Below, piece by piece: positions 1 to 58,702 of a stretch of 64,000 bases of DNA. The DNA comes from Coniferiporia sulphurascens (lineage: Eukaryota; Basidiomycota; Agaricomycetes; Hymenochaetales; Hymenochaetaceae). How positions within the stretch are numbered: position 1 is the first letter of the stretch; each line of letters starts with the position of its first letter. The DNA lies in the NCBI GenBank assembly GCA_002794785.1, contig NBBA01000005.1:1-64000 (forward strand), read 5' to 3'. The translations under genes were made by a program, and so were the position numbers. The notes under the pieces are model-generated. The model did no database searches. It had not been told where the DNA came from and saw only the letters and a program-made list of their open reading frames with translations.

Positions 1-177
1 TAACCTAACCCTAACCCTAACCTAACCCTAACCCTAACCCTAACCCTAACCCTAACCCTAACCCTAACCCTAACCCTAACCCTAACCCTAACCCTAACCC
101 TAACCCTAACCCTAACCCTAACCCTAACCCTAACCCTAACCCTAACCCTAAAACCCTAACCCTAACCCTAACCCTAA
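1..177. repeat. Telomere repeat tract (CCCTAA)n
   Basis: Nearly perfect tandem CCCTAA units run from the first base. There is a slipped unit near the start and one variant (CCCTAAAACCC) near 147-156. The plus strand is the C-rich strand, so the chromosome end lies to the left and the G-rich strand runs 3' toward position 1. The TTAGGG-type repeat is usual for filamentous fungi. This is a true chromosome end or an assembly that reaches it. Confidence 0.97.
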
Positions 178-987
178 CTGACGACTAACCGTTGTCAGTC
201 TGGGTTACTGTATCCCAAGAATAGCTTATAAACTATTTTTGGAAGTCTTTTCGTATCAATTGATATGTCAGCAATTGGATAAACCCGATGGCTGGGTATT
301 GACGAAGCTTATAGTTTCGACGAGAGTAACCGGCCCGCAAGGGTCGGCGAAGTGCGCGTCGTAATTAGATGACTAAGTCCCCGGTGCTTTATCGGACCTA
401 TTGTTGAAGGCCATCACCGCCTATCGGCGGTGATCTCATGACCATCGCGGGAACACCGGCATATAGTCGGTCCTCGTGGTGGGTAGTGCGTGAGTTTTGC
501 CTCTACTCGGGCCGCAGTCCAGCGGCCGTAAGCAGTAGCTTCAAAGGAATAGGAGTGGGTGGATGATAACACCGAAGCAAGGAACTGTGGCGCTTCGCGC
601 CACAGGAGTCCCTCGACTGAATGCTGTCTCATCAGCAGGTCGTTTTCTTGCCCCTATGGATAATTGATGGAACCACAGTCTTCTCGACTCGTGACCCATA
701 TCAATAGATATGAACGGAGTATTTCACCATACTTCACTCAGATAGCGTGCAAGGAAGCGGCCTCGTGTTTAGTAACGGCCCCTTGCACTCTCCTGGTATG
801 GTGCCTTTGGCACCATCCTTGTAGTCGATTCTTCGCCTATAAAGAGCTGCAAAAAAGCACTGATGAGAACTCAGTTCGAAAGCTCAGGTTGCACACGCCG
901 TGCAACTGTTCTTTGCTTTCAGCCTCGTCCTCACCGACCTAGCTTTAAAAATCGCCTTCGGCGATTTTTCGTGTGTTGATTCCCCCC
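178..987 (+). ncRNA. Subtelomeric structured-RNA unit A (group I intron-like, candidate)
   Basis: A non-coding unit begins where the telomere repeat stops and ends in a C-rich run that merges into telomere repeats. Plus-strand hairpins include 330-336/341-347 with a GCAA loop, 413-421/426-434, 510-515/522-527, 798-805/809-816, and 947-955/961-969 with a C(UUCG)G loop. GNRA and UUCG loops read correctly only on this strand, which sets the RNA sense. GACTA at 371-375 can pair with TAGTC at 464-468, preceded by CATA. This resembles the P7 and J8/7 elements (R and S) of group I introns such as the Tetrahymena one. TAACCC of the last telomere repeat (169-174) can pair with GGGTTA at 202-207 across a CTGAC/GTCAG hairpin, like a P1 guide helix. 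No open reading frame looks real. Structured RNA is well supported; the group I assignment is inference and transcription is unknown. Confidence 0.6.
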
Positions 988-1009
988 ACCCTAACCCTAA
1001 CCCTAACCC
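988..1009. repeat. Interstitial telomere repeats between units A and B
   Basis: About three and a half CCCTAA units separate the two subtelomeric units. Unit B starts directly on the last CCC. This is what is expected if unit B once capped the chromosome, telomere repeats were added to it, and unit A was then placed on top. Confidence 0.9.
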
Positions 1010-1712
1010 GATGGCTGGGTATTGACGAAGCTTATAGTTTCGACGAGAGTAGCCGGTCCGAAAGGACCGGTGAAGTGCGCGTCTTAATTAGATGACTAAG
1101 TCCCCGGTGCTTTATCGGACTTATTGTTGAAGGCCATCGCCGCCTAACGGCGGCGATCTCATGACCATCGCGGGATCTCCGGCATATAGTCGGACCTCGT
1201 GGTGGGTAGTGCGTGAGTTTTGCCTCTACCCGGGCCGCAGTCCAGCGGCCATAAGTGGTAGCTTCAAAGGAATAGGAGTGGGTGGATGATAACACCGAAG
1301 CAAGGAACTGTGGCGCTTCGCGCCACAGGAGTTTCTCGACTGAATGCTGTCTCATCAGCAGGTCGTTTTCTTGCCCCTATGGATAATTGATGGAACCACA
1401 GTCTTCTCGACTCGTGACCCGTATCAATAGATATGAACGGAGTATTTCACCATACTTCACTCAGATAGCGTGCAAGGAAGCGGCCTAGTGTTTAGTAACG
1501 GCCCCTTGCACTCTCCTGGTGTGGCGCCTTCGGCGCCACCCTTGTAGTCGATTCTTCGCCTATAAAGAGCTGCAAAAAAGCACTGATGAGAACTCAGTTC
1601 AAAAGCTCAGGTTGCACACGCCATGCAACTGTTCTTTGCTTTCAGCCCCTGTCCTCACCGACATCTGCTTTAAAAATCACCTTCGGCGATTTTTCATGTG
1701 TTGATTCCCCCC
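1007..1712 (+). ncRNA. Subtelomeric structured-RNA unit B, 5'-truncated
   Basis: A second copy of the unit at roughly 96% identity by eye. It lacks the first ~106 bp of unit A (178-283) and starts abruptly on telomere sequence. The equivalent hairpins are 1053-1059/1064-1070 (GAAA loop), 1136-1144/1149-1157 and 1521-1528/1532-1539. The P7-like pair is GACTA 1094-1098 with TAGTC 1187-1191, and here the motif continues as AGTCGGACC, even closer to the classic group I S element. Many of the differences from unit A are paired changes that keep the stems. It ends in ACCCTAACCC at 1713-1722. Truncation only at the end facing the telomere suggests incomplete reverse transcription during end-joining, but that is inference. 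Confidence 0.6.
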
Positions 1713-1722
1713 ACCCTAACCC

Positions 1723-5300: not shown

Positions 5301-6127
5301 AACGCTTGAGCTCCGCAAGTGTCGCAGTCATGCATTGCACGATTGAGTGATGAATGTCTTGCATGCTTCCTGATAATCCTTGATACAGCTCTATGACGTC
5401 CGCACGGCGGCGTTCGAGCGCACGCTTGATCTCCACATGAAATCGTGGATAAATATGTACGCGGCTTAGCTGAAGCTCTTTCATGATTGCTTTGAGTGGG
5501 TAGAAACCGCTCGTGATATGCTCAGGAGCATCGGAAAACGCCTTTACGCATCCCGCAGAGTTTTTCTCACGGAAAAGGCGGATGATGAAAGCTTCGAGAG
5601 AAAGGGCGGTGACCCTATCTCGCGCAAATGAGGGTCAACTTAGTGGACCGAGTGCTTGAGTCACGTACTTTTCAGCATGTAGAACTATAAGTGCTGTAAT
5701 CATCTCAGTTGGGATATCAGCCTGAAGCATATCAACAACGAGGATACGAGAGGTAACGGAGATTAGTCCCCCTTGTTTGTAAAGAACCTGCCTTCAAATC
5801 GGTCGTTACGAATGCCAGAATGGAAACCTCGCAGACACACCTCTCCTTCCTGCCCATTTCGTACCCAACAACTCGTAATCCCGGCTTTCTGCACCCCATG
5901 ATACCCAATTGTTCCCCAATGCTCGCCTCCTCTTCAGGGGACGCGTTAACGAGCAGGACGAGGTTCTGCGGACCGTCGTAAATTTGGAGGAGCGTGCAGA
6001 CGACCCTACGCAAACCAAGTCCCCGAGCTAGGATAATGAGGTCTGAAGTGGAGGGGTCATGGATGGTTTCAAGGATATGTTGATGGAAAGGTAGCAGAGA
6101 ACCAGCTTGAGACAAAGTGGTCGCCAT
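2386..6127 (-). CDS. RAD1: DNA repair structure-specific endonuclease Rad1/XPF (ERCC4 family)
   Basis: This is the catalytic subunit of the Rad1-Rad10 (XPF-ERCC1) nuclease, which cuts 5' of bubbles and flaps in nucleotide excision repair and single-strand annealing. Exons read in order on the minus strand: an N-terminal helicase-like region from the ATG at 6127 (SLLPFHQHILE, then ARGLGLRRVVCTLL); exons at about 5770-5250 (LSLEAFIIRLFREKNSAG, YPRFHVEIKRALERRRADV); a middle region 5200-3900; and the ERCC4 nuclease domain near 3330-2920 with VIVDMREFRSTLPSLLH and the ERKxxxD catalytic motif (VERKSIPD near 3075-3098). A C-terminal helix-hairpin-helix (LPGITAKNVKYVMSKVG) ends at the stop 2386-2388. 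Each frame break coincides with a GT-AG intron of about 50-60 bp, so the gene appears intact. It is the first protein gene from the telomere. Exon limits are approximate. Confidence 0.92.
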
Positions 6128-9100
6128 TTAGCCAGTCGCATACGGACAAGTTGCATTCATGCGACGTTCGTTTGTCGAGTGACACCCAAAGGGAGACGAG
6201 AACACCAGCCTTTTCAAGTATCCAGACGTCCTTTAAGTCTTTTTGAGGTCTATCAATCGGTTTCAACCATGAAAATGGTATTCAAATGGCGCTGGAGTAG
6301 CAATAAGACAAGCGTGGACGACGAACCGTATACAGTGTACCTATGTAACGGCTAACCCCGCAAGTGGGTTTAAACTCCGATATCTTGCGTTGCAAGAAAC
6401 CCTTCAACTTGAAACTACCCGCGAGGCTCGCCTGCGTCCTAATATTCTTGGGCCGACTCACCGACAAATTTCCAAAGTTGAGTGACAAAGAAAACTCTTT
6501 ATATTGGCTTTGTTTGCGACTTTACTTTTTATCACCGTTTCCCCGTCATTACGCTTCATCAAGACTATCTCACTGGAGACAGTGGCAGCAGCCTGAGTTA
6601 GTCCACCAGGAATCCGGGATCATCATCAAATTCATCATTAGAGAATCGAGTCGCGTTTAGCAAGGCCACCCTTTCTTTGGGATAGTATTTTCTCACATCT
6701 CGCCTTGATCACAGGACCCGTTCATCTTGCAAGTCGGTCCACTTCGAGAGCTTTTTCTATCGGCTATTGGGTCTGATGGTAGTAAAGGCTTGGGCGCGAC
6801 CGTCGTTGACGTTGCGCACGGCTGGATTTCTCGTAAATATGCTCATCGTTAGTATCTATCCGCTTTCCATCACACAACCCCAGCCTCCAGCACCGGAACT
6901 TAAGCTAACACTAGCTCCGCAAGCTTGATAGTGACGTGTGCATATGATCCTCTAAGGTCCCTTTACTGAGTCGATCATTTGGCTGCATCGTTGAAAAGTA
7001 CATATACGTTTTGCGTTCAAAGCACCCCTGCCCAGCCTCAGCTATTTCTATCTCAGTCACATTTTGCACAGTTGAATATGGCGTTTGTGTGCGACATTGC
7101 AGTCCAGCACGTTAGTTCTTTTGTGAACGAAGAACTCGTTTAACCTTGGCCTGAACTCTCGTAGTAGTGTGCGCAGAAACGATTATTAGTCAAACGCTGC
7201 ACGCATTGTTCGTAGCTTTTAGGACTTACAGCTTATAACTGTTCCTCTAAGGCTGCTGCTTGTGGTCTTCCTAGTTCTGAAGTACTCGTGCTGATTTCCC
7301 TCTCATAGCTGTGTGATTGACCTGGCCATACGGAGTTAGTCGCACAGCAGCAGCTTTAACCGTACAGATAGATCTCTGTACTTGTTGATTTCTGAAACAG
7401 TATAAATGAGTCCTTATATGTTGCTTGGTGATGTGTTCGCTATGCTTCGTGCTAAGGCATTAATCGCCAGATGATGTGATGGCCCTTCTGCCAGCGCGTG
7501 CAAGCCCAGACTAAAACATAGGTACCCGTGTGCCTCCGGATCTTGATCTTTTGGGTGGTGTGAAAAATTCCCGCCTGGTTCTCGGAAAAACGTGCCTACC
7601 TTCTTTCACGTGGACCTTTTCACTTGTCTGCCTGGATTCGACTATTTTCCATCGAAACACCCACAGAATCTTACTCCGAACTGCCGGGATATGTGTATCA
7701 AGCCCTCTTATTTTCCTCGAATGAAATCGTAAAAAATCGCCTAAAATGCAGTACGCCGTACACGGTATCCTCAGAACTGAAGGGCAGACCACGACCACAA
7801 CATGTAATCCTACCAAGGTCCAGTTCCGCTCAGAGAAGCACGACACCTAGACATTCACTCATGAGCAATACATTCCAAGCCCTCCGCCAGAACCGCGAGA
7901 ACTCAGATCACTGCTGCGTTCCAAGAACCTTGACCCAAAGTATGTGTCTGATACATCTCCCACATCTTGGGCGCCGAAAGAAAATACGAAAAATACGAGA
8001 TCATCTTCCATCCTAAAACGAGGCCTCATTGGAAGTTTAGTTCTTATTTGGGTGGGGTGAGGCGGCCTATGGTTACGTCCTTAGTATCCTCTATACAGCT
8101 AAAGGATATACAGTACACAAACGTCCGACCACCTTGACTATGTTCCATTCTCAACGGAACCCATAGCTTCTCATCTTCACACAATTATCTAAACCTCGGA
8201 CCTTCGTAGTAATAGTAGCTCCGATATATTGCTATTTCACAACGTTAAACAGACAAGGAACGTACTATTGTTGTCGAAATATGATTCCGTGTTTAGCACA
8301 CATTATCGGCAGGAAAATTACGACGTAAACGTACTAAAATGTGTTGGTGACAAAACTAGAAAGTTGAAATTAAGGCCACAAGGGACACCGAGGATTGTTT
8401 TCCTACAGACGAGTCAACCCTGCACCGCACGAGGGCTAGGATTCGGAGGTCAGGGTGCGTCGATCAGGAAGTCCGCTGGACTCGAGGAAGTTTCCGGCCC
8501 GTCGGCTTTGAATGTCCCAGGTATTCCCGGTGCAATGTTTGGTTACCGTCGGGATCTCATCATCTCAGGCTGCCCGTCATTTTAAAACACAATGTCCTAT
8601 GATAGTATTCGTATGTCGCGAGTTTAATACAATTCTTCATAACTAACTCTGAAAAACACGTACGCGAGTCAAAATATTACAGTATTACGGTGTAGATTTC
8701 ATGTTAATTGAACGACCCTTCTCAGAGTTGTATTTGGCACCATTCTTCTAATAGAATCAGCTATTAATTTCGGGCTTTCTCCGAAACTCTAACCCTCGGT
8801 CAGTCTTGCACATATCCTAGCGCTCGCCTCTGCCGCGTTTACGAATAGGTTATGATTCATATGGCCTAGACAGCCTACAGTATGCTAAGTATTACAACTT
8901 CACTTCGCTTTGTTTCTTTTTACATCCCCCAAAGAGGCACCCCATCTAGCTAACCCGTCTGGCTATCTACCCATCAGCTGCGAGGCACAGTGATCGGATA
9001 GGATCTACCCGACTCTGTTAATTAAGTGGGTAGTTTCCAATACACTACTGTTCGGTCGCGCCGCCAGCAGGGAGACGGAAAAGGTCCATCCATTGATGAT

Positions 9101-18500: not shown

Positions 18501-18573
18501 GATTCAGTGGTCTAGCGGTTATGATATCTGTCTAACACACAGATGGTTCCAGGTTCGACCCCTGGCTGAATCA
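18501..18573 (+). tRNA. trnV-AAC: tRNA-Val (anticodon AAC), copy 1
   Basis: A 73-nt cloverleaf with acceptor stem GATTCAG/CTGAATC and discriminator A. The anticodon loop is CTAACAC, giving anticodon AAC. The T-loop region is GGTTCGACCCC. It has no intron and is followed directly by CTTTTT, a Pol III stop. It is identical to the copies at 31553 and 47665. Confidence 0.97.
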
Positions 18574-31552: not shown

Positions 31553-31625
31553 GATTCAGTGGTCTAGCGGTTATGATATCTGTCTAACACACAGATGGTT
31601 CCAGGTTCGACCCCTGGCTGAATCA
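31553..31625 (+). tRNA. trnV-AAC: tRNA-Val (anticodon AAC), copy 2
   Basis: Base-for-base identical over 73 nt to the copy at 18501, without an intron, and followed by AGTTTTT as Pol III stop. The flanks are unrelated to copy 1. Confidence 0.97.
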
Positions 31626-47664: not shown

Positions 47665-47737
47665 TGATTCAGCCAGGGGTCGAACCTGGAACCATCTGTG
47701 TGTTAGACAGATATCATAACCGCTAGACCACTGAATC
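47665..47737 (-). tRNA. trnV-AAC: tRNA-Val (anticodon AAC), copy 3
   Basis: Identical over 73 nt to the copies at 18501 and 31553, on the opposite strand. It is followed on its own strand by CTTTTT. It shares TCATGTG immediately upstream and CTTTTT immediately downstream with copy 1, suggesting that those two are the closer pair. Confidence 0.97.
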
Positions 47738-50700: not shown

Positions 50701-51224
50701 GGACGGGTATGAGAAAAAGCGTCCAAGAAAAGTCGGGGCTCCATATGTCATTGTGTGTTTCCTAGAGCGATGAAGAAAGAAGGGAAATTGGGCATATCGG
50801 AAGAAACAGCGTAGAGCACAGGTGATCCCAGCTGATCCGGAAATGCGGGGGAGAAAGGGAGGCTGTCGATAGTTTAGGAGTATTGCCCGAGATTTGGCCA
50901 GGGAGGCCTTCGATAAAAATGCTATAGGAAGGTTATTTAGAGGAACGCAGAGTCGCGTGGTGCATGCGTACCGCTGGGCTACCCGGATAGTCCTCGGATG
51001 CATGCGAGCCGCAGAGAGCCTGAGCTGAGCTCTCCTGCTGCAGTCCCTACAACCAGAAATCACTCGCTTGTCCTTTTAGTTGCGCTTTTATTAGCGAGAA
51101 GATTGCCTACCATGTGCGCGAACTTTATAAAATATCGCTCTGTCCCCGATGCCCCCCTCCCGAATCCCAAATCCCAGATCCTCTTCCCCCTCCCCCTCTC
51201 CTACCAGAGCTCCAGTCCGACGCT
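47738..51224. other. Gene-poor stretch of 3.5 kb
   Basis: Several overlapping frames of 80-160 codons exist on both strands around 48000-48900, but none shows a domain, a splice-consistent extension or a signal I can name. The last 200 bp are the promoter and pyrimidine-rich leader of the first bZIP gene. Confidence 0.45.
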
Positions 51225-53127
51225 ATGGACTTTGGACCTGTTCGTTCCCGTAGAATGTCCCACTACGCGCCCGACGCCGCGTCGGCCTCCTTCCTCTCCG
51301 CCTGGGAGAGCTCTCAGCACCAGCCGCCGTTCCATCGCGCCCACATCCCACCTGAGATTCCCGTAGCATACGGCTACAGGACAGCCAAAGGCTTTCCCCA
51401 GTTCCCCATGTCGCCCATGTCGCCCAACACCCCGCCGTCCGCCATGGGCTACTCACCTATGCCGACGCCGTCGCTGTCCGAGTTCGAGATGCTCCGTCGG
51501 GGGATGGACATCAACTTCCGCCCCGAGATGGTGGCGTCCACGGTCCCAACCGACGAGCACGGCCGCCGGACACCGTGTCTGCCGACGAACCTCAACTTCG
51601 ATTTCGACTTTGATTTCTCGCTACCCAACCTCGCCCTCGCGCTTAACCCATCGGCCCGCTCGTCCCTGCCGACACCGCCGCCAACGTCTCCAGCAACGTC
51701 TAGTCCGCCGCCGGTATCACCCGCGGCTAGTATGAGCGTGATCCCATCATCAATCGTCTTCCCGAGCTCATCTGAGTCCTCCGGCCTGCCGATGAAGCGC
51801 TCGTCCTCGACCGCGGCTTGCACTCAGCCGTCGGCGACGAAGAAACCACGCGCATGCATCAGCACAAAGGACTTTGTGCCGCCCGACGTCACGGGACTCA
51901 CCAAGCGCGAGGCGCGTCTCGTGAAGAACCGCGCCGCCGCGTTCTTGAGTAGACAACGCAAGCGCGAAGAGTTCGAGCTCATGGAAATGTGCGTTTATAC
52001 TGCTAATGACATTTTAAAGTAAATACCGACTGAGACAAAATCCTCAGACGCGTCGCCGAGCTCGAGCAGGAGAACCAACGTCTCCGTGACCTAGCGGACG
52101 GTCGTACACCCCCACCCAGCTCCCCCGGCTCCTCATCTTTCCCGGACTCCGAGCTCGATACCCTCAAGGCCCAGCTCGCAAAGGCGAAACAGCGAGAGTC
52201 AGAACTCACGCGCCGACTTGAAGACTCCCTCCAGCAGAACATTAAAACGGAGTCATACGAGCCGGTGCTGAGCGAGGGAACAAGCTCAGGAGCCAGCTCC
52301 CCTCTTCTGGGACCCGGCTCTCCTGTGAAGAACGCTAAGAGTGGAGCGAGCTTGGGTCTAATGGTTCGTCTCTCACTGTCCCTATTTTGTTCCTTACAGA
52401 AATTAATGGGGCTCCTCTATAGGTTCTCCTCTGTACCCTTCCTTCTCTTCTTTCACAAACGTCCCCCGGTTCAGGCCTTCCGACTTCTCAGTCAATCGTG
52501 GACAACGTCCACTGGGATGCCCCCACCTTGTTGCCTGCGAACGCAGACAGCAACGCGTCTTCAGCACTAGGCTGGGAATTCAACTGGTCTGACTCTGCTG
52601 TTAACTCCGGCGCCGGGCGGAACACGGAGATGGAAGTCGATACCGGTAATACAAGCGACGAAGAGAGTTCTTGGAGGAAGCTTGAAATCGAGGAGGAGAA
52701 CGGACTGGGACTCGGAGCGCTCGACATATTGTTTGACACGCGTCTCACGAAAGATGGGAAGATTCGCGTGCGCGTGCACTCGCCGGCGACTCCGGCACTG
52801 CCCAAGTCCGAGTCGACATCTTCATCCCCAGAGCAACGCGAAAATGGTCCCATCGCCACACCCTCTCCAGTCAGCGACGATGTCTCATTTTCGCCTCTAT
52901 CCCTTCCTCCTCAGGCGGGCTCGGCGACCGGTTACAGCGCGGATACCCAGAATATCTCGTTTGATGGTAACGACGCACTGAGGCAGTACCTCGGTATGGA
53001 GCCGTCATATGAAACCCCGGCGACACAAAATGCGAAGGAGAGCACGCGACGCCGTGTGCGCATTGCACTGAGGGGCCTTCCGCAACCCGGAGGTGAAGGT
53101 GGTGAATGGGAGGTCGAGGTGCGGTGA
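51225..53127 (+). CDS. bZIP transcription factor, paralogue 1
   Basis: The ATG at 51225 (MDFGPVRSRRMSHY) aligns with the start of paralogue 2. The N-terminal ~210 residues are Pro/Ser-rich. The basic region is TGLTKREARLVKNRAAAF then LSRQRKREEFE, with the invariant N-x7-R (NRAAAFLSR). Exon 1 ends at 51988 and a GT-AG intron joins it to 52048 (RVAELEQENQRLRDLADG), starting the leucine zipper just after the basic region. After TESYEPVLSEGTSSGASSPL, one or two introns lie between about 52363 and 52480 that I could not fix. The last part (GLPTSQSIVDNVHWDAP to QPGGEGGEWEVEVR) runs to the stop at 53125-53127. It should bind DNA as a dimer in the nucleus. The basic region resembles the CREB3/ATF6 type, but the pathway is unknown. 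Confidence 0.85.
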
Positions 53128-56621: not shown

Positions 56622-58702
56622 TCATCGCACTTCAACCTCCCACTCGCCGCCTTCTCCACCGGACTGAGGCAAACTCTTAAGTGCTATACGTACACGCCGG
56701 CGTGTGCCTTCCCTAGCACCTTGCGAATCGGGGATATTCGTACTGGATGCGGAAGCGGTATAATCAAACGGAGAATCCGGCAGCCCAAATGATGCGGAGG
56801 GCGCGCACACTCCAAGGAATGGCCCAAGTGGGTCGACGTCGACAAACGAGAGCGAATGAGGATTTGGGCGCGCGCTGAAGGAGGAAGGGCCAGATGTAGG
56901 CGAAGGTTGTGATTGGGGTGGGAAGGAAAGCGGCGAGAACGGGAACTGATCGGAGATTGGGGAGGGCACAGCAATGGGTAGTGTTAGGGATTCATCTGTG
57001 GGTAACTCCGGAGATGGCGAGAGTAAGTCGGTGTTTCTTGCGGGCGCAGAGGGCGATGAGTGTACCCGCACACGAATCTTTCCGTCTTTCGTCCGACGTG
57101 TGTCAAATGAAATATCTAGCGCACCCAGTCCAAGTCCCCCGAGTCCGAGCTCGCTCTCGCTTTCAAACTCGAGCCTCTTCCAGGCGCCGCTCTCGTTGGT
57201 ATTTGCCGTGTTCGGGAAATCGACATCCATATCCATGTTCCGCCCAATGCCTGCATCGACGCTTGAGCCATTCCAGTCGAATTCCCAGTCAAGCAACGAA
57301 GGCGGCGCCCCCGGGCCATCGGTAGTCGCGGGGAAAAAGGTCGGCGCGTCCCATTGGATATTGTCCAAGAAAGACCGAGACGTGGGAAGCGCAGTGCGCG
57401 AGTGAGGGGAAGGTTGGGAGAGGAGGGAGGGAAGTGCGCAAAGCAGGACCTGCGGCAGGATCTCATTAATTTTCTGGAAATAGCAGGAAGATGGAAAACG
57501 CACCATCAACCCCAAGCTGGCCCCACCTTTCGGGCTTGTGATAGCACTTTTCAGTGGGGAGAAGGGTCCCAGAAGAGGCGAACTTGCGCCTGAACTCGTT
57601 CCTTCACTTAGTACCGGCTCGTACGCCTCCGTCTTGACCTTCTGATGCTGAGACGTTTCGAGGCGATGGGCAAGTTCAGCCTCCCGCTGCCGGGCTGCTG
57701 CGAGTTGTTCGCGCAGCTGATCAAGTTCGGAGGAGTCTGAAGAAGCCGACGAGAGGGGAGACGACGAGCGGCCACCTGCGAGACGGCGAAGGCGTTCGTT
57801 CTCCTGTTCAAGCTCGGCGACGCGTCTAGGAAAATATTATTAAATTCAGATAATCAGCAATAAGCTATGAAATATAATTACATCTCCATTAGCTCAAACT
57901 CCTCGCGCTTGCGCTGCCTGCTTAAGAACGCGGCGGCACGGTTCTTTACGAGGCGAGCCTCGCGCTTGCTGAGTCCCGTAACATCCGGAGGTACGAAGTC
58001 TTTCGAGCTCATGCATGCGCGGGGCCTCTTGGAGGCTGTCGGGGACGGTGAGCACTCGGAGTTGGAGGACGACCGCTTAGGTAGAGATGCGGAACTTGAT
58101 GAAGACTCGGGGGAGCCCGGAGGGGCAAGCGAGGCAGAGACGGCGTGCATGTTCGCGGGGGCGGGCAACGGTGGGGGTAATATTGCAGCTGGGAGGGACG
58201 AGGGGGAGGGCAGCGGTGTTGGGAGGGACGAGGAGGGTGGTGGGTTGAGAGAAAGACCGGGATGTGGGAGGGAAAAGTTGAAGTCGAAGTGGTGATTGGT
58301 CGGAAGGCAGGACGGGGGTGGGCGCCCACGCGCGTCGGCTGCTGCGGCTACCTCCGAGCCGTGGCGGAGACTGTTTTCAAAGATTATTTCCCTTCGCAGC
58401 ATCTCTAACTCTGACAACGACGATGGCGACGGCGGCGAATAGGCCATTGACGACGACGACGCCGACGACGACGGTAGCAACGACGACGACATTGACGACG
58501 TTGGCGACACAGGCGAGATGGGAAACTGGGCGAACCCAGAGGCCGGCCTATAAACGTAGGCACTGCCGGGGAATTGGTGGAACTGGGGCTGATGTGATGA
58601 GCTCTCCCAGGCGGACAGAACGGCTGCCGACCCCGTGGACGTCGTCTCGAACGGGTTTTGAGAGCGAGGCATCCTGCGGGCCTGGCCGGATTCAAAGTAC
58701 AT
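56622..58702 (-). CDS. bZIP transcription factor, paralogue 2
   Basis: The ATG at 58702 (MYFESGQARRMPRSQNPFE) opens a 274-codon first exon ending near 57880. It has Pro/Ser-rich sequence, then SKDFVPPDVTGLSKREARLV, KNRAAAFLSRQRKREEFELM, the same basic region as paralogue 1. The zipper exon follows a 50-bp intron (about 57883-57833; RVAELEQENERLRRLAG). A further intron near 57500-57400 leads to the C-terminal domain (LDNIQWDAPTFFPA; ALDISFDTRRTKDGKIRVRV), ending GGEGGEWEVEVR at stop 56622-56624. The paralogues are most alike in the basic region, the SxGTSSGASSPLLGP block and the C-terminal DTRxTKDGKIRVRVHS and RRRVRIAL blocks, and differ in the linkers. They face each other tail to tail. Both look functional. 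Confidence 0.86.

Follow-up and report, generated by a model that had tools for sequence, protein, structure and literature searches.

A folded 818-nt unit beside the telomeres of Coniferiporia sulphurascens most probably represents the 3′ non-coding module of a Penelope-like retroelement

Fungal Penelope-like retroelements that lack an endonuclease (EN-deficient elements) go by the name Coprina. As outlined in PMC3846280, EN-deficient elements of this kind occur in fungi, encode a reverse transcriptase (RT) without a GIY-YIG domain, sit only at chromosome ends, apparently use exposed chromosome ends or breaks for priming, and have telomeric repeats added to their truncated 5′ ends; the same outline gives Penelope elements and telomerase a common ancestor. 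Penelope elements linked to telomeres are also mentioned for Agaricus (PMC7473861). In bdelloid rotifers, the Terminons and Athena elements, as summarized in PMC6431247, carry reverse-complement telomeric repeats at their 3′ ends, downstream of a hammerhead ribozyme, and form 5′-truncated head-to-tail arrays. Hammerheads are further noted in canonical Penelope-like elements with pseudo-long terminal repeats (pseudo-LTRs), such as PAc of Anolis, in which non-coding repeats flank the RT gene (PMC11167929, in outline), and in retrozymes, which are non-coding units (PMC7761336, in outline). Here, we describe a related case in the basidiomycete Coniferiporia sulphurascens, found in the first 64,000 nucleotides (nt) of contig NBBA01000005.1 (“the window”), the left end of a 2.1-Mb contig (C5) in an assembly of 39.3 Mb and 31 contigs (GCA_002794785.1). 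Directly inside its terminal telomere lie an 818-nt non-coding unit (unit A) and a partial second copy (unit B).

We conclude, with a probability of roughly 0.8, that the unit is the 3′ non-coding module (3′ untranslated region or pseudo-LTR) of a basidiomycete EN-deficient Penelope-like retroelement that attaches to telomeres in the way proposed below. The host of the element is probably a member of the Hymenochaetales; for one window protein, the closest named matches are from Phellopilus (69%), Fomitiporia (65%) and Pyrrhoderma (65%). A first-pass annotation of the same DNA had placed the unit in what would normally be called subtelomeric junk and had recognized no named element of this form. 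Neither description is supported: the unit most likely belongs to a retroelement, and the class is already described at fungal chromosome ends in the outline given by PMC3846280. By analogy, the element appears to work like the described EN-deficient Penelope and Terminon cases and is of a known kind. It may differ from the fungal elements in its 818-nt folded 3′ module, in the additional presence of solo copies and in its occurrence at every assembled telomere. Unlike the Terminons, it gives no sign of a giant element; unlike canonical Penelope-like elements, it has no endonuclease and occupies chromosome ends rather than internal AT-rich sites; and unlike retrozymes, it has a fixed telomeric 3′ tail. 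The long structured module, the solo copies and the presence at every assembled telomere may be new here, on weak evidence of novelty: we met no description of a long folded module with solo copies in the open-access literature searched, and the key primary papers lie outside that literature.

The features of the locus are as follows, with hairpin pairs numbered by the columns of an alignment (A2) of the 17 copies found in the genome, which comprise 16 distinct sequences.

1..177, plus strand: terminal telomere tract (CCCTAA)n, 177 nt, one of 10 terminal tracts of 150-222 nt.
178..995, plus strand: unit A, the full-length 818-nt non-coding module, with its 5′ end facing the telomere tip; 8 other copies have the same start nucleotide.
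178..198, plus strand: 5′ hairpin CUGACGAC-UAACC-GUUGUCAG, from the computed fold.
330..347, plus strand: hairpin with a GNRA loop, CCGGCCC/GGGTCGG in unit A and CCGGTCC/GGACCGG in unit B (1053-1070); pair 158/167.
413..434, plus strand: hairpin ATCACCGCC/GGCGGTGAT, with a unit B counterpart at 1136-1157; pairs 240/255 and 241/254.
585..605, plus strand: triloop hairpin CTGTGGCGC-TTC-GCGCCACAG; 6 of 8 counted pairs are invariant.
798..816, plus strand: triloop hairpin ATGGTGCC-TTT-GGCACCAT, with a unit B counterpart at 1521-1539; pairs 622/640, 623/639 and 626/636.
854..919, plus strand: candidate type I hammerhead ribozyme, from a descriptor match and a sub-threshold Rfam match.
947..969, plus strand: 3′-terminal hairpin AAAAATCGCC-TTC-GGCGATTTTT, from the fold and the alignment.
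986..995, plus strand: unit 3′ end CCACCCTAAC, complementary to the telomeric G strand and the proposed annealing site; CCACCCTAA is present in 17/17 copies.
989..1009, plus strand: internal telomeric tract of 21 nt between units A and B, whose last 5 nt (AACCC) match unit B too.
1005..1720, plus strand: unit B, a copy without the first ~104 nt, joined at a telomeric repeat with 5-nt microhomology.
1583..1604, plus strand: unit B hammerhead core, in which the G of GAAA (1601) is changed to A, a change found identically in 7/17 copies.

These limits correct those drawn at first: unit A begins at 178, and unit B is a 5′-truncated copy. The identity of A and B, put at about 96%, came to 95% over 716 nt.

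One line of evidence for a telomere-attaching element is where the copies lie. Our search scored only the best candidates, so the genome holds at least 17 copies. All 17 found sit at 10 contig ends in a single orientation, with the 5′ end tipward. Those ten ends also hold all 241 exact telomere 24-mers (four repeats) of the assembly, and therefore every assembled telomere adjoins the element family. Counting from the tip, the unit comes first at 8 ends, an RT element (see below) at C7R, and a tail of ~49 nt of that element at C9R. Nine copies start at unit nucleotide 1 and eight are 5′-truncated; every truncated unit abuts telomeric repeats, with microhomologies of 5, 1, 1, 1, 0, 5, 3 and 1 nt at the joints. 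Random joints have a mean of 0.64 nt and reach 5 nt in 0.5% of cases (0.005 per junction), versus 2 of 8 observed. On the 3′ side, each of the 17 copies reads CCACCCTAA and has 6-26 nt of telomeric sequence (median 11, including the unit's own CCCTAAC). Because these stretches are so much shorter than the terminal tracts of 150-222 nt, the chromosome ends were apparently short at the time of attachment.

Could the unit instead be a plain subtelomeric repeat, spread by recombination between ends, its RNA having no role? Two units at one end, C3R_a and C3R_b, show no difference over 816 nt, which conversion would produce, and some ends have proximal subtelomeric segments in common. However, the ten innermost units lead, beyond the short telomeric tract, into ten different sequences; the points of 5′ truncation differ among copies; and at C9R and C21R, whose units adjoin the same subtelomeric segment (83% identical between the two ends), the joints lie 39 nt apart, as they would in independent attachments. 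We consider this explanation improbable. The shared segments themselves, of ~1 kb in the proximal flanks of C4R, C9R and C21R (L059, L062, L067), have 83-87% identity and are more diverged than the units.

The second line of evidence for a Penelope-like element is the gene beside the unit. A longer element encoding a reverse TRANSCRIPTASE lies directly 5′ of the unit at C3R, C7R and C15R, in copies that are 97.5-97.8% identical and have different starts; at C9R it is cut down to ~49 nt, again directly 5′ of the unit. The joint CCCTAACCCCAACCCGAACCCTAACTCTAAC-TGACG is identical in all four RT-bearing or RT-tail copies (C3R, C7R, C9R, C15R). The frames match residues 1-1334, 257-1334 and 61-1334 of the longest copy and have no internal stops, and the ratio of nonsynonymous to synonymous substitution rates is 0.07, 0.06 and 0.09 over 1254, 1076 and 1076 codons. 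The RT is thus under purifying selection. Pfam gives RVT_1 as the sole match at E ≤ 0.1 in both copies scanned (of three) and finds no GIY-YIG endonuclease domain in these two, the complete 5′ end being outside the sequence seen. Residues 560-1000 have 331 homologues, and the two that carry an organism name among the 120 matches listed are from the basidiomycetes Bondarzewia and Fibroporia, at 48% each. By sequence, the RT has no match among PDB chains at E ≤ 0.1. For structure, we used a model of a homologue, P0003 (51% identical, 849 amino acids (aa), mean predicted local distance difference test score 77.4, 35 sequences), and its five best Foldseek matches in the PDB are telomerases, followed by other RTs and viral polymerases. 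In viral contigs no relative of the RT was confirmed; one 28% match lies in a contig of a prokaryote bin. The host genome also encodes a telomerase RNA-binding domain.

The element thus has those features expected of EN-deficient Penelope-like elements that were tested: it occurs only at chromosome ends and in one orientation (3/3 RT matches in the genome, all at telomere-bearing ends, and 17/17 units), and it carries a 3′ telomere-complementary tail in 17/17 copies. At C3R and C15R, moreover, a unit is found on the distal side of the RT element as well, a pseudo-LTR-like arrangement. The two flanking units at C3R (L058, tip-first 165-980 and 5627-6442) are the identical pair mentioned above, and recent co-insertion or conversion would give such identity; the pair at C15R, unlike that at C3R, differs. 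Also at C15R (L065, tip-first ~980-990), the switch from telomeric repeats to the RT element falls precisely on an in-frame ATG (AAC-ATG), which is probably a coincidence of microhomology.

A different reading of the same arrangement is that the unit is an independent non-autonomous RNA element, similar to a short interspersed element or a retrozyme, with its own transcript and moved in trans by a Penelope RT, the RT-unit pairs being secondary fusions. Thirteen of the 17 copies have no preceding RT sequence (5 start exactly at unit nucleotide 1 and 8 are truncated), each end of the unit has a hairpin, and its hammerhead candidate parallels the hammerheads of retrozymes outlined in PMC7761336. 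On the other hand, one junction and one imperfect linker are common to all four RT or RT-tail copies, which fits one composite RNA; RT-preceded and solo units are intermingled in a tree with weak support; and a stop in the telomere-like linker accounts for the exact solo starts without a second promoter. We regard an independent element as unlikely.

For the Penelope-like element that we favor, attachment could proceed as follows. The RNA would fold and be bound by the element's own RT, and its CCCUAAC tail would pair with a G-rich end left exposed by chromosome erosion or breakage. Copying of the RNA onto that end by the RT would follow and would stop early or within the telomere-like linker, and telomerase would add fresh repeats at the end of the complementary DNA (cDNA). 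As the linker CCCTAACCCCAACCCGAACCCTAACTCTAAC precedes the unit, a cDNA ending there would be directly extendable, which would explain the solo full-length units and the tandem arrays. The candidate hammerhead, with a cut predicted 82 nt upstream of the 3′ end, may serve to trim tandem transcripts. A bolder version, which we offer as a long shot, is that the solo unit serves as a natural telomere-healing cassette: a non-coding ribozyme RNA, telomere-complementary at both ends, that the Penelope RT would copy onto chromosome ends that are broken or critically short, with telomerase taking over afterwards in a two-enzyme capping relay. With every assembled telomere adjoining a Penelope element or its 3′ module, the genome offers 17 sequenced joints to short telomeric tracts. 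A folded RNA with a ribozyme candidate also provides a concrete substrate for asking how an RT without an endonuclease recognizes its RNA and the chromosome end, and how telomerase takes over from the Penelope RT.

The claim that the unit encodes a folded RNA with compensatory changes was made originally from units A and B, whose three hairpins at 330-347, 413-434 and 798-816 proved to be correctly placed and spelled in both units. We counted over a strand-neutral set of 208 pairs, those on which the folds of the majority sequence agree between plus and minus strand. In the 17-copy alignment, 11 of these pairs are changed on both sides, in 27 cells. When the partners are slid by 1-3 columns, 0-2 pairs are doubly changed, and the wider controls all stay below 11 (maximum 3 in 120 slides within ±60 columns, and 7 in 400 whole-structure shifts). 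Shuffling the 3′ letters gives a mean of 6.5 pairs, with 6/500 shuffles reaching 11, and a mean of 8.6 cells, with 0/500 reaching 27. The plus-strand structure, with 285 pairs, likewise yields 11 pairs and 27 cells, versus 0-3 pairs in slides. These counts are not numbers of independent events, because the copies are related and may recombine. They come from one genome; a search for relatives of the unit's DNA in plasmids found none.

Six of the 11 pairs belong to the three hairpins above. Pair 158/167 is C-G in 7, U-A in 3 and U-G in 1 of the 11 distinct copies with letters there; 240/255 and 241/254 show a double change in one copy each; and 622/640, 623/639 and 626/636 hold 5, 5 and 1 doubly changed cells. 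The loop of the first hairpin reads GCAA, GAAA or GGAA, a GNRA loop in which N alone varies. The loops assigned at first as C(UUCG)G tetraloops are C(UUC)G triloops; read as tetraloops, they would require a C-C mismatch. Against 20 shuffles per strand, the fold of unit A has a z-score of -11.9 for the plus strand and -7.8 for the minus strand, and the plus strand is the better by 29 kcal/mol. The least variable block, columns 651-700, has 1 variable column. Covariation, GNRA variants, the stronger plus-strand fold and a hammerhead core on the same strand together support selection on a plus-strand RNA structure, as the first-pass annotation had argued; this RNA reading is well supported for the local hairpins and less so for the global fold.

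The hammerhead core lies close to the 3′ end. On the plus strand, positions 860-881 read CUGAUGA-GAAC-UCA-GUUC-GAAA, so the putative ribozyme would consist of a 6-bp stem I (854-859/914-919), CUGAUGA (860-866), stem II (867-877), GAAA (878-881) and stem III (881-912), the last with a 2x2 internal loop and a bulge. The putative NUH cleavage site is CUU at 911-913, and the cut is predicted between 913 and 914, 82 nt upstream of the inserted 3′ end. A descriptor of the core and stem II (CUGANGA ... GAAA, with a G-C-closed stem II), written after the motif had been seen, matches 10/17 copies, and both strands of the window and of the ten 10-kb ends contain no other match. Among 20000 unit shuffles, 8 satisfy core and stem II, and 1 satisfies stem I too. 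Across the genome, a looser pattern matches 25 times; 10 of these matches lie in units, and the 15 outside are near background, because a reversed-pattern control gives 10. The G after stem II is kept in all 4 RT-preceded copies and in 6/13 others. The unit thus contains a candidate self-cutting ribozyme; as the Rfam gathering score was not reached, we go no further than candidate.

Several points weigh against the reading proposed here. Assignment to Penelope was made from the features tested and the homologue model, not from an RT tree, and the element is known here from genome sequence, not from transcripts, RT activity or new insertions. TM-scores between the P0003 model and telomerases, at ranks 1-5, are low (0.29-0.35 by model and 0.40-0.43 by chain). 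The RT elements at C7R and C15R are truncated and capped by telomeric repeats, and the C3R frame is open up to the joint, so that a complete 5′ end was not seen. As for the hammerhead, 7/17 copies carry A in place of the G that follows stem II (A2 column 703; G at window 878, A at 1601). The best Rfam match of the 96 nt at 840-935 is the RAGATH-1 hammerhead, at 16.4 bits and E 0.89 versus a gathering score of 56.3, and Rfam gives nothing at E ≤ 10 on 170-1010. In a local fold of 82 nt, the hammerhead has -15.8 kcal/mol versus a minimum of -23.7, which is 7.9 better. The folding program credits no tertiary contacts of the hammerhead core. With its predicted cut 82 nt from the 3′ end, cleavage would therefore not make the inserted 3′ end. 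Finally, paired and unpaired columns are equally variable (105/570 vs 43/248, Fisher p 0.77). Equal divergence of loops and stems was one of two outcomes named at the outset as speaking against an RNA structure, and it is what we see; the other, an absence of significant paired changes, is not.

That equality is also what one would point to if the paired changes arose at the DNA level and without any selection on RNA, through template switching in quasi-palindromes or through decay of CpG in both arms. CpG transitions account for 55 of 148 variable columns, and 3 of the 11 double changes are CpG on both sides; nor do the strand-neutral pairs show an excess of G-U over A-C, with 41 vs 47 cells overall. 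However, the other 8 double changes fall outside the both-sides-CpG class (7 have no CpG in any copy and 1 has it on one side in one copy), and they include a U-A to A-U double transversion present in 3 copies. The better plus-strand fold of unit A and the survival of GNRA identity through three loop variants also argue for RNA. The non-standard pairs differ when divided by sharing: types shared by at least 2 copies are 12 G-U and 10 A-C, versus 4 G-U, 20 A-C and 11 other among private types (p 0.012 with the 11 others left out, for a split made post hoc). Such a division would be expected if a propagating lineage were under plus-strand RNA constraint and inserted copies decayed freely, again as a post hoc account. 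Overall, we think a DNA-level origin quite unlikely.

Telomerase RNA has a single host locus and a template of ~1.5 repeats. As a structured RNA with a CCCUAAC stretch, the unit might be taken for a fungal telomerase RNA gene or a derivative of one, but all 17 copies found are terminal and no internal locus appeared, no telomerase RNA family matches at E ≤ 10, and no telomeric run in the two units checked exceeds the 8-nt ACCCTAAC at the 3′ edge; we consider this identity very improbable. A group I intron was likewise considered and rejected: GACTAAG (371-377) and CATATAGTCGG(A/T)CC (460-473) resembled P7-type motifs of such introns, and a search of 170-1010 against Rfam returned nothing at E ≤ 10. 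Plus-strand coding was rejected as well, as no open reading frame (ORF) of at least 40 aa beginning with ATG is common to 8 full-length copies (of 9, the ninth being identical to one). On the minus strand, an ORF beginning MRQHSVE (window 414-632 in unit A) is present in 8/8 full-length copies and spans 41-107 aa in the 15/17 copies that hold its start; the 72-aa version of unit A has no Pfam match at E ≤ 1, and the ORF is taken as non-coding.

Elsewhere in the window, the only known RNA families at gathering score are three tRNAs. These are identical tRNA-Val(AAC) genes within 30 kb, at 18501-18573 (+), 31553-31625 (+) and 47665-47737 (-), and they look dispersed rather than segmentally duplicated, because similarity ends no more than ~10 nt outside the genes. 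Two ORFs ~6 kb apart on opposite strands, 51114-52022 (+) and 57878-58702 (-), have bZIP matches at E 1.3e-4 and 4.3e-4, below the curated cut-off.
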